Of a DNA stretch of 64,000 nt, positions 50,656 through 56,645 are shown piece by piece. This stretch comes from an uncultured Haliea sp. GTDB taxonomy: Bacteria > Pseudomonadota > Gammaproteobacteria > Pseudomonadales > Halieaceae. The notes beneath the pieces were generated by a model. It saw only the letters and a program-made list of their open reading frames with translations. It ran no database searches and was not told where the DNA came from. Position numbers and translations under genes: made by a program. Location: contig CAMYIZ010000059.1 of assembly GCA_947258585.1 (NCBI GenBank), positions 90,821 to 154,820 of the forward strand, given 5' to 3'. Each line of letters starts with the position of its first letter. Within the stretch, counting starts at the first letter, position 1.

Positions 50656-51738
50656 CTACGGGGCAATGACCCGCGGGGTTCGCGGGGGCATCCGGGTCAG
50701 CAATTCGTAGCCGATGGTACCCGCATGACGGGCAACCTCGTCCACCGGCAGGCCCTCTCCCCAGAGCACGACCGGGTCGCCGATCGCAACCGGTGGCAGG
50801 TCGGTTACATCGACAGTGATCATGTCCATGGAGACCCGGCCCGCGAGAGTGGCTCGCCGGCCGTTGACCAGGACCGGGGTGCCGTTGGCTGCCGTGCGCG
50901 GGTAGCCGTCGCCATAGCCTATGGTTACCGTCGCAACCCGGGAGGGGCGCTGTGCCTGCCAGCTGCCACCGTAGCCGACGCACTCGCCGGCCGCGATGTC
51001 CCGCACCGAGATGACCGCCGATACCAGGGTCATGACAGGCCGCAGGCGTTCCGCCTCGGGCTGGGTCTCGCCGAAGGGAGAGTTGCCCCAGAGCATGTAA
51101 CCCGGTCGGATCCAGTCGTAGTGGGCCCGGGGCCAGGCCAGGGTGGCAGGGGAATTGGCTGCGCTGCGCAACCCCTCCAGGCCCGCGGTGGCGGCCTCGA
51201 ACAGTTCGATTTGCTGCCAGGTCTGCGGGTTGTGCAGCTCGTCGGCGGAGGCAAAGTGGGTGGAGAGCACCGGCGTGCCCGCCATCTTGCCGCAGGCAAG
51301 CAGCCGCTGGTAGAAGCTGGCGGTCTGCGCCGGCAGGGCGCCCAGGCGGTGCATGCCGGTGTCGATCTTGAGCCAGCAACCAACCGGTGCCGAGAGCGAG
51401 GCCTGCTCCAGCCACTGGAGCTGGAGGTCATTGTCAATGGTGATCCAGAACCCTGCTGCGGCAGCGACCGGCAGCTCACTGGCTTCGAAAACCCCCTGCA
51501 GGAGCAGGATCGGGCAGCGGATGCCTGCGTCGCGCAGCGCCAGGGCTTCCTCTGTGCAGGCGACCGCCAGCGCGTCCACCCGGGGTTCGAGTTCCCGTGC
51601 CATGGTCACTGCGCCGTGCCCATAGGCATTGGCCTTGACCACGGCCATCAAGCGCGTCCCGGGGGCGAGCTCGCGCGCCACGGCGACGTTGTGGTGGAGG
51701 GCGCTGAGGTCCAGGCGGGCCTGGCTGGGACGGGTCAT
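50656..51738 (-). CDS. alr: Alanine racemase
   Basis: ARLDLSALHHNVAVARELAPGTRLMAVVKANAYGHGAV (PLP Lys), WLKIDTGMHRLG, TIGYGDGYPR, VSMDMITVDV. Confidence 0.96.
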   Translation of the reverse strand: MTRPSQARLDLSALHHNVAVARELAPGTRLMAVVKANAYGHGAVTMARELEPRVDALAVACTEEALALRDAGIRCPILLLQGVFEASELPVAAAAGFWITIDNDLQLQWLEQASLSAPVGCWLKIDTGMHRLGALPAQTASFYQRLLACGKMAGTPVLSTHFASADELHNPQTWQQIELFEAATAGLEGLRSAANSPATLAWPRAHYDWIRPGYMLWGNSPFGETQPEAERLRPVMTLVSAVISVRDIAAGECVGYGGSWQAQRPSRVATVTIGYGDGYPRTAANGTPVLVNGRRATLAGRVSMDMITVDVTDLPPVAIGDPVVLWGEGLPVDEVARHAGTIGYELLTRMPPRTPRVIAP

Positions 51739-52601
51739 CAGTAGTCGTAACGGTGCCGGCTAAACAGGGTTGCGGCGGCGAGCCAGACATCGCCGATGCC
51801 GCCGTTGCCCACCGGCTTGCCGTCGATCTCGATGACCGGAGCCACCTCTTTGCTGGAGCTGGTCAGCCAGACTTCATCGGCGGCGTCGACCTCCGCCATG
51901 GTTACCACCCGCTCTTCTACCGGGATGTCGCTGTGTTTACGCAGAATATCCAGCAGCATCAGCCGGGTGATTCCGGGCAGCTTCTGGTGATCCAGCTCCG
52001 GAGTGGCCACGGTGCCGTCCTTGACGACAAACACGTTGCAGGCGGCGGCCTCGGTGAGTTCGCCTGCCTCGTTGTAGAGAATCGTCTCACCGTGGCCGCG
52101 GCTGTGGCCGTGTTGATAGTGCATGACGTTGCCGAGCAGGGCGGTGGATTTGATATTGCAGCGGCGCCAGCGCAGGTCTTCCGCCGTAGAGACCCGGTAG
52201 CAGGTGGCTGACGCCTTGTCGGCAACTGGCGCCGGCGGGATTTCAAAAGCGAAGGCGTAGAGGGTGGGGGCGACGTTCTCTGGATAGGCGTGATTGCGCC
52301 GGCTATCGGCGCCCCGGCTGACGTGGAAATAAACGCCCAGATTGCCCCTGCCGTTGCGCGCTATCAGCTCATTGGCAATACCGCGCCACTGCGTCTCGTC
52401 TACCTTCAGTTTGATTTCGATGGCATCCAGCCCCTGCTGCATGCGCTGCAGGTGTGGCCCGAATCCCACCAGCTTGCCAGCGTAGGAGGGCACCACCTCA
52501 TAGATACCGTCGCCGAACAGGAAGCCCCGGTCCATCGGCGAGATGCGGGCTTCACTCATTGGCAGGTAGTCGCCGTTCAGGTAGACAATACTCATGTTCA
52601 A
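51738..52601 (-). CDS. dat: D-amino acid aminotransferase (class IV aminotransferase)
   Basis: VYLNGDYLPMSEARISPMDRGFLFGDGIYEVVPSYAGKLVGFGPHLQRM, WRRCNIKSTALLGNVMHYQHG, VWLTSSSKEVAPVIEIDGKPVGNGG; stop overlaps alr start (TGATG). Confidence 0.88.
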   Translation of the reverse strand: MNMSIVYLNGDYLPMSEARISPMDRGFLFGDGIYEVVPSYAGKLVGFGPHLQRMQQGLDAIEIKLKVDETQWRGIANELIARNGRGNLGVYFHVSRGADSRRNHAYPENVAPTLYAFAFEIPPAPVADKASATCYRVSTAEDLRWRRCNIKSTALLGNVMHYQHGHSRGHGETILYNEAGELTEAAACNVFVVKDGTVATPELDHQKLPGITRLMLLDILRKHSDIPVEERVVTMAEVDAADEVWLTSSSKEVAPVIEIDGKPVGNGGIGDVWLAAATLFSRHRYDY

Positions 52602-52620: not shown

Positions 52621-53463
52621 TCAGTTCCGCAGAAAGCCGGTCAAGCGGCGGATTTCGCCAATGACCGCATCGCCCTCGGTGGGGGGCATGCCATCCTCGG
52701 TCAGGGTATTTTTGCGGGTCACACCGTCGACGCTGCCACGCTCAGACAGATAGCGCAACGTGGCCAGTGGCGAAAATGCTCCAAGCAGGTCGCGCTCCGA
52801 CCAAAGAGCCAGGAACGCGAGCAGGCCGTAGGCACCCCAGTTGGATACATCGGCCACCAGCAGCTCGTCGCAGCTGGTGACCGCGACCCGGATATCCAGG
52901 GCAGCGATGGCCTCGGCAATCTTGCCCATGCCGATCTCGTTGCCGCCGTCGCCGATGCCGATGGTCGGGCAGGTTGCCCGGGTCAGAAACGGGTCGAAGG
53001 CGCCGCAGCGGGAGCTGATATCTTCACCGCGCATGTTGTAGTAGCGGCCGTCTGTGGTCCGCCCGGGTCGCTCGATGGAAATGACGGCAGCGGGGGAGTT
53101 CGCCGCCAGCCAGGTAGTGGCTGCCTGCTCACCGCCGTCGGCGGGGTCGCGGTCCAGGGCCAGGATGCGATAGTCGGCTGCCATGGCATCGGCCAGGGGC
53201 GTGGCGCAGGCGATGACGGGCTGTGCGCCGAGGGCCTCAAGACCCTGGTACAGTGCGATGGCGCCCACCGGGCCATCGGTTTCGAAGGTGTCTCCCACCG
53301 GGAAGCCGGTGCCGATCAACACTGTCCCCCGCAGGCCGTGCAACAGCTCCGCGGCGCGCAGGTAGTAACCCGGCCTGAGTGCGGCGCGGGCGGTCTGCAT
53401 CTGGCGCGGATTGCGTGCGACCAGCAGGGCCTCGATGGTTTCACTCAGGGTCTGGTCATTCAC
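52621..53463 (-). CDS. DUF4392 domain protein (D-glutamate cyclase C-terminal domain-like)
   Basis: TVLIGTGFPVGDTFETDGPVGAIALYQGLEALGAQPVIACATPLADAM...TIGIGDGGNEIGMGKIAEAI...LLVADVSNWGAYGLLAFLAL. GTG start at 53463 overlapping pxpC stop (GTGA). Confidence 0.85.
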   Translation of the reverse strand: MNDQTLSETIEALLVARNPRQMQTARAALRPGYYLRAAELLHGLRGTVLIGTGFPVGDTFETDGPVGAIALYQGLEALGAQPVIACATPLADAMAADYRILALDRDPADGGEQAATTWLAANSPAAVISIERPGRTTDGRYYNMRGEDISSRCGAFDPFLTRATCPTIGIGDGGNEIGMGKIAEAIAALDIRVAVTSCDELLVADVSNWGAYGLLAFLALWSERDLLGAFSPLATLRYLSERGSVDGVTRKNTLTEDGMPPTEGDAVIGEIRRLTGFLRN

Positions 53464-54410
53464 CGGTTTCGCTCCTCGGGCGCTGCCTGCAAGGGCATGT
53501 GCTGTATCCGCCAATGGTTCAGATGCAGTGCATTGTGGGCGGCGTGCGGGCTGATGGCGGCGAAATGTACCCTGCCGCCGGGCTGCAGCTGCGCCATGCG
53601 CTCCGCGTCCAGGGACAGGGCGGCTCCGATCTTGGGGTAGCCACCGATGGTCTGGCGGTCATTGAGCAGCACGATCGGCTGGCCATCGGCGGGGATCTGG
53701 ATGGCGCCGAAGCAGATGCCCTCGGACAGGATGCCCTCGATGTCGCAACGGATGGCGGGGCCCTCCAGACGATAACCCATGCGATCACAGCGCTGTGAAA
53801 CCGTCCACTCGCTGCTGAAAAAACGCCGCTGCTGGAGACGGTCGAAGTGCTGCTGCTGGTAGCCGGGTATGACCCTGACAGTGACCTGGTTCTGGTAGTG
53901 CGGGCGCTGGTCGCGCGGCACTTGCAGACGGTGATGCTCGCTCACCGTGGCGCAGGGCAGGACGTCGCCGGGCGCCAGCTTGTCGCCGCGCAGGCCGCCC
54001 AGCTGCTCCCGCACCACGGTCGCCGTGCTGCCAAACTGGGGGGCGACGACAAAGCCGCCGGCCACGCCCAGATAGCTGCGGCAGCCATCCGTGGCATAAC
54101 CGAGGCTGATGTGGTCGCCGGCCTTGACCTTGTGCACCGTCCACAGCTCTCGCTCCTTGCCGTTGATTGCCAGGGGCATGCTGGCTCCGGTTACGCACAG
54201 GAAGGTGTCGGTGTGGGCGTCGAGTTCCAGCCCGCCAAAGCTGGCTTCAATGGCGGTTGCCGCCGGGTCGTTGCCCAGCAGGCGCTGGCAGAGTGCGAAG
54301 GCATTGCGGTCCAGCGGGCCGCCGGTGGTCAGGCCAATGCCGTGCTGGCCGTAGCGGCCCGGATCCTGGAGCAGGCTCAGCAGCCCGGGCTGGCGCACCA
54401 CCAGACTCAT
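53460..54410 (-). CDS. pxpC: 5-oxoprolinase subunit PxpC (biotin-dependent carboxyltransferase/KipA-like)
   Basis: MSLVVRQPGLLSLLQDPGRYGQHGIGLTTGGPLDRNAFALCQRLLGNDPAATAIEASFGGLEL, CDRMGYRLEGPAI, LNDRQTIGGYPKIG. Confidence 0.93.
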   Translation of the reverse strand: MSLVVRQPGLLSLLQDPGRYGQHGIGLTTGGPLDRNAFALCQRLLGNDPAATAIEASFGGLELDAHTDTFLCVTGASMPLAINGKERELWTVHKVKAGDHISLGYATDGCRSYLGVAGGFVVAPQFGSTATVVREQLGGLRGDKLAPGDVLPCATVSEHHRLQVPRDQRPHYQNQVTVRVIPGYQQQHFDRLQQRRFFSSEWTVSQRCDRMGYRLEGPAIRCDIEGILSEGICFGAIQIPADGQPIVLLNDRQTIGGYPKIGAALSLDAERMAQLQPGGRVHFAAISPHAAHNALHLNHWRIQHMPLQAAPEERNR

Positions 54411-55090
54411 GCCAGTTCTCCGCCCAGTTCCAGAAAGCGCTCCCGGCTGATCGGCTCAAACCGCACCCTGTCGCCAACGGCTACCGGCATGGTGGGCTCG
54501 GCATTCGGGTCGAACATGCGCTGTGGGCAGTTGCCGATCAGGTTCCAGCCCCCCGGCGACACGGCCGGATAGATTGCGGTCTGGCGATCGGCAATGGCCA
54601 CCGCGCCCCGCGGCACTTTCGCGCGCGGGGTTGCCAGTCGGGGGGCGGCGATGCGCGTGTCCACCTCGCCCAGATAGGCGAACCCCGGGGCGAAGCCAAT
54701 GGCGTAGACGCGGTACTCGGTTCCGCTGTGCAGTGCGATCACTTCGTCCACCGGCAATTGGCACTGCTGCGCCAGCCGCTCCAGATCGGCGCCGGACTCC
54801 GCGCTGTAGTAAACCGGCAGCACGATTTCCCGGCCACCGCTGCCGGCGCTGGCACCGTCGATGTCCGCGCGGATACCGTGCAAACGGTGAATGACACTCA
54901 TGTGGTCGGTGCGAAGTGGATCGTAGATCACCAGCAGGGAAGCGTAGGAGGGAACCAGATCGATGAGGTCGGGCCCCAGCACCCGGCGGGCCGCCGCGGT
55001 CGCGGCCTGTACCCGGGCGGCCACCTCCGCACCGGTTCTCTCGCCCAGATAGAGTATTACCGCATTGTCACCGGCGTAGCTCAACTGCAT
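54407..55090 (-). CDS. pxpB: 5-oxoprolinase subunit PxpB (KipI/allophanate hydrolase subunit 1-like)
   Basis: LVPSYASLLVIYDP, LPVYYSAESGADLERLAQQ, YAIGFAPGFAYLGEVDTRIAAPRLATPRAKVPRGAVAIADRQTAIYPAVSPGGWNLIGNC. Confidence 0.94.
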   Translation of the reverse strand: MQLSYAGDNAVILYLGERTGAEVAARVQAATAAARRVLGPDLIDLVPSYASLLVIYDPLRTDHMSVIHRLHGIRADIDGASAGSGGREIVLPVYYSAESGADLERLAQQCQLPVDEVIALHSGTEYRVYAIGFAPGFAYLGEVDTRIAAPRLATPRAKVPRGAVAIADRQTAIYPAVSPGGWNLIGNCPQRMFDPNAEPTMPVAVGDRVRFEPISRERFLELGGELA

Positions 55091-55097
55091 GCGCGGG

Positions 55098-55829
55098 TCA
55101 GGCTCCCTTGATCAACGCGCGCACGGCTTCGATAGCGCGTACACCCTCAAGATTGTCGCCATGCACGCACAAGCTGTCAGCGGACAGTGGCAGGCGCTGG
55201 CCGCTGATCGTGGTGACGGTGCCCTGGCGGCACAATTCGTCCACCTGTGCCAGCATGCGTTCGCGATCGTGCACGGCGTGTGGCCGCTTTCGGGATAGCA
55301 GGCGTCCGTCATCGTCATAGCAGCGATCGGCAAAGGCTTCGAGCAGGAGTTGCAGGCCCAGCGCATGCGCCTCCTGCCGATGTTCCTCCGCCTGCGGCGT
55401 CGCCTGCAGCATTAACGCCAGGGGACGGTGGTAGCCGGCTACCGCCGCCATGATGATGCGCCGCAGTGAGCTGTTGGCCATCATGTCGTTGTAGAGCGCG
55501 CCGTGGGGTTTGACATAGGCCAGCTGCAGGCCGTGACAGGCGGCCATCCCGTCCAGGGCGGCTATCTGGTAGCGCAGGCTGCTGGCCAGCTCCGTGTCGT
55601 CCAGGTGCATGGTTCGGCGGCCGAAACCCACCAGGTCCGGGTAGGCGGGGTGGGCGCCCACGCTGACGCCGTGTCGCGCTGCCAGCGCCAGGGTTTTGTC
55701 GATGGTAACCGGGTCGCCACCGTGAAAACCGCAGGCAATATTGGCCTGGTCGATGTGGGGCATCACGTCGGCATCCATGCCCATGTTCCAGCTGCCATAG
55801 CTTTCGCCGAGGTCACAATTGAGAAGCAT
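55098..55829 (-). CDS. pxpA: 5-oxoprolinase subunit PxpA (LamB/YcsF family)
   Basis: LLNCDLGESYGSWNMGMDADVMPHIDQANIACGFHGGDP, GAHPAYPDLVGFGRR, VKPHGALYNDM, CVHGDN. Confidence 0.96.
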   Translation of the reverse strand: MLLNCDLGESYGSWNMGMDADVMPHIDQANIACGFHGGDPVTIDKTLALAARHGVSVGAHPAYPDLVGFGRRTMHLDDTELASSLRYQIAALDGMAACHGLQLAYVKPHGALYNDMMANSSLRRIIMAAVAGYHRPLALMLQATPQAEEHRQEAHALGLQLLLEAFADRCYDDDGRLLSRKRPHAVHDRERMLAQVDELCRQGTVTTISGQRLPLSADSLCVHGDNLEGVRAIEAVRALIKGA

Positions 55830-55859: not shown

Positions 55860-56645
55860 TCAGAGTATAGCCAGTTGGCTGTTGCGCAGGTCGGTGACCA
55901 GCATGCAGCCCGGGCTGTGGGTAATGGCCAGCGGCGGTCGCGCCTGTTCCAGCGCGACCTGCGGCGTAACGCCGCAGGCCCAGAACACCGGCAGTTCCCC
56001 GGCTTTCAGCGTGACCCGGTCACCGTAATCCGGCCGCTCCAGGTCCCGTATCCCTATCTCCGCAGGGTCCCCCAGATGGATGGGCGCGCCGTGCACCGAC
56101 GGGAACCGGGTGCAGATCTGGATCGCCCGTATGGCATCGGCGGCCTTGAAGGGCCGCATGCTGACGACCATTTTGCCGGCGAAGGGTCCCGCGGGCTGGC
56201 AGTCGATATCCGTGCGATACATGGGGACGTTGACGCCTTCGCTGACGTTGCGCACCTCCAGCCCGTCGGCCAGCAGTGCTTCTTCAAAGGAGAACGAGCA
56301 GCCCAGGGCAAAGGTTACCAGATCATCCTGCCACAGGCCCTTGATGTCCTCGCACTCCGCCTGCAGCTTGCCGTCGCGGAAAACGCGGTAGCTTGGCACG
56401 TCAGACCGGATGTCTATATCCCCCAAAAGTGGTAGCGACGGGTCTCCCGGCGCGGCGGAGCTGGCGATGAGCGGGCAGGGTTTCGGATTGGCCTGGCAAA
56501 AACGCAGGAAATCGCTCGCCCAGGCTGCGGGCAGGATCACGATATTGCACTGCACGAAGCCGGCCGCAAGACCGGAAGTGTTGCCGGAATGCTGACCGCT
56601 GCGGATACGGCGGCGCAGTTCGGCAGGTGTTGGGGTGATGGCCAT
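55860..56645 (-). CDS. DUF1445/YcsI family protein (D-glutamate cyclase N-terminal domain-like, putative hydro-lyase)
   Basis: [89 protein letters not shown]. Start at ATG 56645. Confidence 0.9.

Follow-up and report, generated by a model that had tools for sequence, protein, structure and literature searches.

Are both halves of the vertebrate D-glutamate cyclase, the DUF1445 and DUF4392 domains, needed when a bacterium encodes them as two separate proteins, and do these then form one enzyme or catalyze two steps? The question is raised by the window, i.e. the whole stretch of 64,000 nucleotides from the genome of an uncultured Haliea sp. (G000) analyzed here, where genes for the two domains lie at separate positions of one operon. 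An initial annotation of this DNA had started from the fusion of the domains in eukaryotes, which the literature bears out for vertebrates (PMC5132392, PMC5339696), and had proposed either a hetero-complex or two different reactions. Because the operon splits the halves and supplies neighboring steps, the roles of the domains can be put to the test in a handful of small proteins from bacteria; both families are conserved and also present in people.

Gene content and layout of the operon

By combining the open reading frames of the window with profile searches, we found seven tightly packed genes on the minus strand, in the order DUF1445-pxpABC-DUF4392-dat-alr, in which neighbors either overlap or are separated by no more than about 30 bases. 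The DUF1445 gene (PF07286/UPF0317, 261 aa, 55860..56645; PF07286 at 1.5e-66 and NF003969 at 1e-121), whose product is a candidate racemase acting on 5-oxoproline, is followed by the genes for 5-oxoprolinase subunits A (pxpA, 55098..55829; PF03746 at 1.6e-87, NF003816 above cut-off), B (pxpB, 54407..55090; PF02682, TIGR00370 above cut-off) and C (pxpC, 53460..54410; PF02626, TIGR00724 above cut-off). All three subunits were found with Pfam and NCBIfam profiles, and they are predicted to make up an ATP-driven 5-oxoprolinase that opens 5-oxo-L-proline.

On the other side of the pxp genes lies the DUF4392 gene (PF14336, 280 aa, 52621..53463; PF14336 at 6e-65), the product of which is a homologue of TON_0340 and a proposed Mn-dependent D-glutamate cyclase. 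Its GTG start codon shares bases with the pxpC stop codon, and a GAGGAG motif is located about 8 nt upstream. That this is a stand-alone reading frame, three pxp genes away from DUF1445, had been noted initially and was confirmed by the PF14336, PF07286 and Pxp profiles. The run extends past DUF4392 into two genes absent from the initial annotation, namely those for a D-amino-acid transaminase (Dat, 51738..52595; PF01063, PDB matches and a carboxylate-trap motif) and an alanine racemase (Alr, 50656..51738; TIGR00492 at 1.6e-107).

Conservation of the operon among genomes

A scan of GTDB species genomes yielded 80 loci, the highest-ranking ones among at least 551 relatives, and the survey thus describes the closest clade rather than the whole DUF4392 family. 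All of these loci are proteobacterial, and gammaproteobacterial wherever they could be placed; the closest, in Kineobactrum sediminis, shows 79% identity. The order DUF1445-pxpA-pxpB-pxpC-DUF4392-(Dat) is strongly conserved over these best 80 of at least 551, and it recurs far beyond chance. Counting only loci with enough flanking sequence among the same best 80 of at least 551, the neighboring genes identified were those for PxpC (72 of 74), PxpB (73 of 74), PxpA (72 of 73), DUF1445 (66 of 70), a downstream Dat (60 of 74) and Alr (28 of 68). A LysR-type regulator is often found near DUF4392 and Dat. At four loci, namely L006 and three of Rheinheimera (L064, L070 and L076), DUF1445 is not a neighbor but is encoded at another site of the same genome, so that all 70 of the 70 assessable operon-type carriers (from the top 80 of at least 551) possess DUF1445. 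An even sample of 370 genomes of the class gave DUF1445 in nine and DUF4392 in three, all three of which also had DUF1445.

Certain variants rearrange the set. While Rheinheimera keeps DUF4392 with pxpABC and Dat and has DUF1445 apart, and the two genes are unlinked also in genome G746, DUF1445 adjoins DUF4392 in Neptunicella (L069/L142, genome G663) and in genome G635, with pxpABC elsewhere; in G663 the distant pxpABC is accompanied by Dat and Alr. The loci L069/L142 and L143 have the adjoining pair and no pxp genes. Megaplasmids of Pseudoalteromonas, including that of strain CF6-2, carry the configuration GH3-DUF1445-pxpA-DUF4392-Dat, and this strain can grow on D-Glu and D-Ala released from peptidoglycan as sole nitrogen source (PMC6962226). 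The glycoside hydrolase family 3 gene before DUF1445 was seen in Pseudoalteromonas and a few relatives (e.g. L134:5549-7417 and L143:5723-7627), which may point to a connection with the breakdown of peptidoglycan. None of the scanned loci encodes DUF1445 and DUF4392 in a single polypeptide, and the window has them as two reading frames. In a Porticoccaceae metagenome assembly, pxpC and DUF4392 share one frame of about 607 residues (L059:8987-10807), either a true fusion or an assembly error.

Occurrence of each family without the other

Co-occurrence of the two families is lopsided: DUF1445 without an operon-type DUF4392 is common, while the converse was never found (70 of 70 carriers, from the best 80 of at least 551). 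Six of the nine DUF1445-bearing genomes in the class sample lack DUF4392. We inspected 23 DUF1445 loci that are not of the operon type (nine in genomes and fourteen on plasmids), and 14 of these, all without an operon-type DUF4392, had an oxoprolinase nearby, which was of the Pxp type in nine and of the hydantoinase A/B type (1,200 aa) in five. The latter five loci (L122, L124, L125, L170 and L171) have no PxpABC nearby, and four of them include a TRAP transporter. At L122, the TRAP binding protein matches 2pfz and 2pfy, which we take to be pyroglutamate-binding proteins of Bordetella. No oxoprolinase was found near DUF1445 at L172, L175, L179 and L181.

Among the plasmid records with DUF1445, 93 out of 240 came from Klebsiella. 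Plasmids of Citrobacter (L177), Lactiplantibacillus (L176) and Roseateles (L178) carry a Pxp-DUF1445 cluster that also includes an NRAMP transporter and a gene for biotin carboxylase.

Distantly related DUF4392 proteins that occur without the operon, and whose identity to that of the window is about 31-35% among plasmid hits, fall outside the operon clade, and two genomes with such a distant copy (G415 and G462) have no DUF1445. Archaea are likewise reported to have DUF4392 without DUF1445 (PMC5132392). No DUF4392 match was obtained in phages with a protein search, or in E. coli genomes with a DNA search.

The DUF4392 protein and its metal site

The match of PF14336 (GLUCM-like_C) to the window protein scores 220 bits, against a cut-off of 27.9, and covers positions 4-290 of the 291 in the profile. 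All metal ligands of TON_0340 (PDB 4fc5/5gl2) are conserved in it, as E61, D63, E131, D172, E176 and D257, and these six are intact across 95 DUF4392 sequences save for one degenerate copy. E61 (codon 53281..53283, minus strand) corresponds to E59 of TON_0340, the proposed general base, and D172 (codon 52948..52950, minus strand) to the bridging ligand D157. TON_0340 has been published as a weak, probable Mn-dependent phosphatase whose activity requires both E59 and D157 (PMC5132392). We infer that the making or breaking of an amide, e.g. in the cyclization of glutamate, would be well served by a metal center whose general base is acidic.

An AF2 model of the protein (pLDDT 94.9) gave a strong match to TON_0340 alone and a weak one to a RecJ-like protein, with no racemase fold among the structural matches. 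Pfam and NCBIfam profiles likewise gave no match to the Asp/Glu racemase families (PF01177, TIGR00067), and a DUF4392 racemase of this kind was rejected for want of support from family and fold. Where racemase chemistry occurs beside DUF4392, it belongs to a separate domain or gene, i.e. an adjoining or fused glutamate-racemase-like protein. In genome G643, a frame of 3,573 residues (L140:5683-16401) has two DUF4392 domains that flank a glutamate-racemase-like domain (at about residues 1737-1972), and it ends in an LWXIA domain; the first DUF4392 copy lacks two metal ligands, and a DUF1445 gene is found directly upstream.

The DUF1445 protein

PF07286 matches the DUF1445 protein of the window with 223 bits, above cut-off. 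Its model has the UPF0317 fold in Foldseek, with a TM-score of 0.89 to 2pif (PSPTO_5379), the other structure of the family being 3db9 (Atu3911); identities to the two range from 44 to 48%, with 48% to 2pif. No racemase was matched, either by sequence (Pfam and NCBIfam) or by fold, and matches outside the family were weak ones to MJ0159. Seven residues are invariant across 87 sequences (C57, C116, C224, H185, H190, H243 and R164), and they are alike in proteins with and without DUF4392, bar a few single changes. Two of the cysteines, C116 (codon 56298..56300, minus strand) and C224 (codon 55974..55976, minus strand), which align with C124 and C232 of the 2pif chain, hint at the two-base chemistry of a racemase, a clue from sequence that falls short of evidence. 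DUF1445 is a candidate racemase, and a doubtful one.

Dat, Alr and the supply of D-glutamate

The transaminase carries the carboxylate trap described for canonical D-amino-acid transaminases (F26, Y31, V33 and RxH in bsDAAT; PMC10003956) as F29, Y34, V36 and R102-x-H104, together with the catalytic lysine K151, and across 77 sequences the trap residues vary little or not at all. Among PDB entries, it matches best the D-amino acid aminotransferases 4m0j, 4pbc and 3daa; the top NCBIfam matches are also D-amino-acid transaminase, yet below cut-off. The Alr of the operon gave the single PF00842 match in the window genome and is thereby the only alanine racemase found there.

A search of the window genome for the glutamate racemase MurI found none. 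A weak match on contig C36 was rejected as a chance match, the gene being panB. The same genome contains a hydantoin-racemase-like gene on contig C9 (L162:777-1553) and, on contig C41 (L163:788-2780), a match to the cysteate racemase CuyB adjoining one to the D-cysteate sulfo-lyase CuyA. MurI was absent from 42 of 58 operon carriers, versus 1 of 22 non-carriers mostly of the same order. In the class sample it scored above cut-off in just 117 of the 370 genomes, and its absence is therefore not specific to the operon. Loss of MurI as a hallmark of the operon was rejected on this background and is kept below as part of a rival explanation only.

A possible route from D-glutamate to L-glutamate

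Characterized PxpABC enzymes are described for the L form of 5-oxoproline. The fused mouse protein converts D-Glu to 5-oxo-D-proline, and D-Glu accumulates in its absence (PMC5339696); a change of chirality is thus to be expected between the two. Formation of the lactam from glutamate is strongly favored; for the L form, the Keq of [Glu]/[5-OP] is about 0.035 (PMC13274462). A cyclase and an ATP-driven oxoprolinase acting on one and the same enantiomer would therefore run a futile cycle that burns ATP. The stereochemical gap to which the initial annotation had pointed is in this respect a real one.

Two unrelated types of oxoprolinase take up DUF1445 without DUF4392, while none of the 70 assessable operon-type carriers of DUF4392 is without DUF1445, which suggests that DUF4392 would be the entry point for D-Glu and DUF1445 the link between the D-lactam and an L-specific oxoprolinase. 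In the route that we propose, Dat and Alr would interconvert D-Ala, D-Glu and L-Ala, DUF4392 would use its di-metal acidic site to turn D-Glu into 5-oxo-D-proline, DUF1445 would act next on 5-oxoproline, most plausibly by converting the D-lactam to the L-lactam, and PxpABC would open the latter to L-Glu at the expense of ATP. The seven genes would then constitute one D-amino-acid operon, shuttling nitrogen and carbon among D-Ala, D-Glu and L-Glu. The genes themselves, their conserved linkage, the intact metal site, the transaminase motif and the lopsided co-occurrence are observed, while we infer every reaction assigned to DUF4392 and DUF1445 as well as the way in which the flux runs. The route as a whole is put forward tentatively, the probability being somewhat below even. 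Its most specific form, in which DUF1445 (UPF0317) would be a 5-oxoproline racemase of a new cofactor-free family that completes, with a di-manganese DUF4392 cyclase and PxpABC, a "cyclize, invert, open" path from D-Glu to L-Glu, is more likely wrong than right by a clear measure. What speaks most against either half being a racemase comes from humans, who excrete mostly 5-oxo-D-proline (cited in PMC5339696) despite having the fused protein, so that the fusion is unlikely to racemize 5-oxoproline strongly. Also weighing against the route are the phosphatase activity published for TON_0340 (PMC5132392), the lack of a racemase among the fold matches of DUF1445, and the DUF1445 loci with no oxoprolinase nearby (L172, L175, L179 and L181).

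If true, this lactam route would be a new marine use of D-amino acids derived from peptidoglycan, and it would explain why DUF1445 accompanies two unrelated 5-oxoprolinases. A DUF1445 racemase and a DUF4392 cyclase would also mean that the Pfam names of the two domains are swapped.

Alternative explanations

Two successive steps, with both halves needed, is the best reading of these data, and it fits better than one obligate enzyme. The halves do appear functionally coupled, as the initial annotation had supposed: all 70 of 70 assessable carriers have both (from the best 80 of at least 551), and they adjoin each other without pxp genes at L069/L142 and L143. Together with the vertebrate fusion (PMC5132392), this is what would be expected if DUF1445 and DUF4392 formed a single hetero-complex D-Glu cyclase, neither being of much use alone, from which 5-oxo-D-proline would be exported, racemized by another enzyme or opened by a D-tolerant PxpABC. 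However, DUF1445 is widespread without DUF4392 and keeps the same invariant residues there, distant DUF4392 copies lack DUF1445 (G415 and G462, and the archaea of PMC5132392), and the genes are unlinked in Rheinheimera and G746. Since each family occurs without the other, an obligate complex is not demanded, and we regard this explanation as unlikely. The option of two different steps fares better where it places a change of chirality before PxpABC, but not in the reading in which DUF4392 would be the racemase and DUF1445 the D-Glu cyclase. The latter assignment agrees with the Pfam name of PF07286, "D-glutamate cyclase", and with a likeness of DUF4392 to a protein annotated as Asp/Glu/hydantoin racemase (PMC5339696), but DUF4392 matches no racemase family, its model strongly matches TON_0340 only, and a separate glutamate-racemase-like protein is found adjoining or fused to it. 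Moreover, it is DUF1445 and not DUF4392 that tracks both unrelated types of 5-oxoprolinase, where a D-Glu cyclase with no racemase would be a dead end; the roles are hence more probably the reverse, and the assignment with DUF4392 as the racemase is improbable.

The operon could also serve peptidoglycan, with Alr and Dat making D-Glu and the cyclase and PxpABC removing the excess. No MurI was detected in the window genome, whose single Alr lies inside the operon, MurI is missing from 42 of 58 carriers whereas 21 of 22 non-carriers, mostly from the same order, have it, and Dat can substitute for MurI in Staphylococcus aureus (PMC5458566). This supply function is nevertheless quite unlikely, as 16 carriers retain MurI, the class at large reaches the MurI cut-off in only 117 of 370 genomes, and CF6-2, which bears a version of the operon, takes D-Glu as a nutrient (PMC6962226). 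A last alternative has DUF4392 as an Mn-dependent phosphatase of a small phosphorylated compound, e.g. a gamma-glutamyl phosphate by-product of PxpABC, which is thought to proceed via this intermediate (PMC13274462). TON_0340 acts slowly on AMP with Mn2+, an activity abolished by D157L or E59Q (PMC5132392), and PxpC and DUF4392 share one frame at L059. The activity is, however, promiscuous, with a kcat/KM on AMP of only 1.9e2 per M per s (PMC5132392), many pxp operons have no DUF4392, and the mammalian fusion works on unphosphorylated D-Glu (PMC5339696), all of which leaves little probability for a phosphatase.

Comparison with known systems

The closest known counterpart is the vertebrate D-glutamate cyclase (DGLUCY/C14orf159/mouse 9030617O03Rik, EC 4.2.1.48; PMC5339696), which has DUF1445 and DUF4392 in common with the window. 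While the vertebrate enzyme is one fused mitochondrial protein, the window has two genes that flank pxpABC, with Dat and Alr added; the pair is by sequence a candidate for EC 4.2.1.48, the activity that turns D-Glu into 5-oxo-D-proline. TON_0340 of Thermococcus onnurineus (PDB 4fc5, 5gl2-5gl4; PMC5132392) shares family, fold and six metal ligands with the window DUF4392, but is published as a probable phosphatase and comes from the archaea, reported to lack DUF1445. In the same way, PSPTO_5379 (2pif) and Atu3911 (3db9) of UPF0317 share family and fold with the window DUF1445.

PxpA, PxpB and PxpC are common to the window and the pxp operons of Bacillus subtilis (pxpA-ycsG-ycsI-pxpBC; PMC10448178) and Corynebacterium glutamicum (pxpTABC; PMC13274462), and the former also shares DUF1445, as YcsI. 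Both of these differ in having an NRAMP-type transporter instead of DUF4392, Dat and Alr.

Lastly, the DgcN-DgcA system proceeds by N-acylation and subsequent racemization. It is found in marine bacteria and, like the proposed route, converts D-Glu irreversibly to L-Glu at an energy cost (PMC12363236, PMC10845958). If true, the sequence of cyclizing, inverting and opening would thus parallel DgcN-DgcA with an internal lactam replacing the acyl group, which DgcN-DgcA takes from another molecule, and with unrelated proteins.
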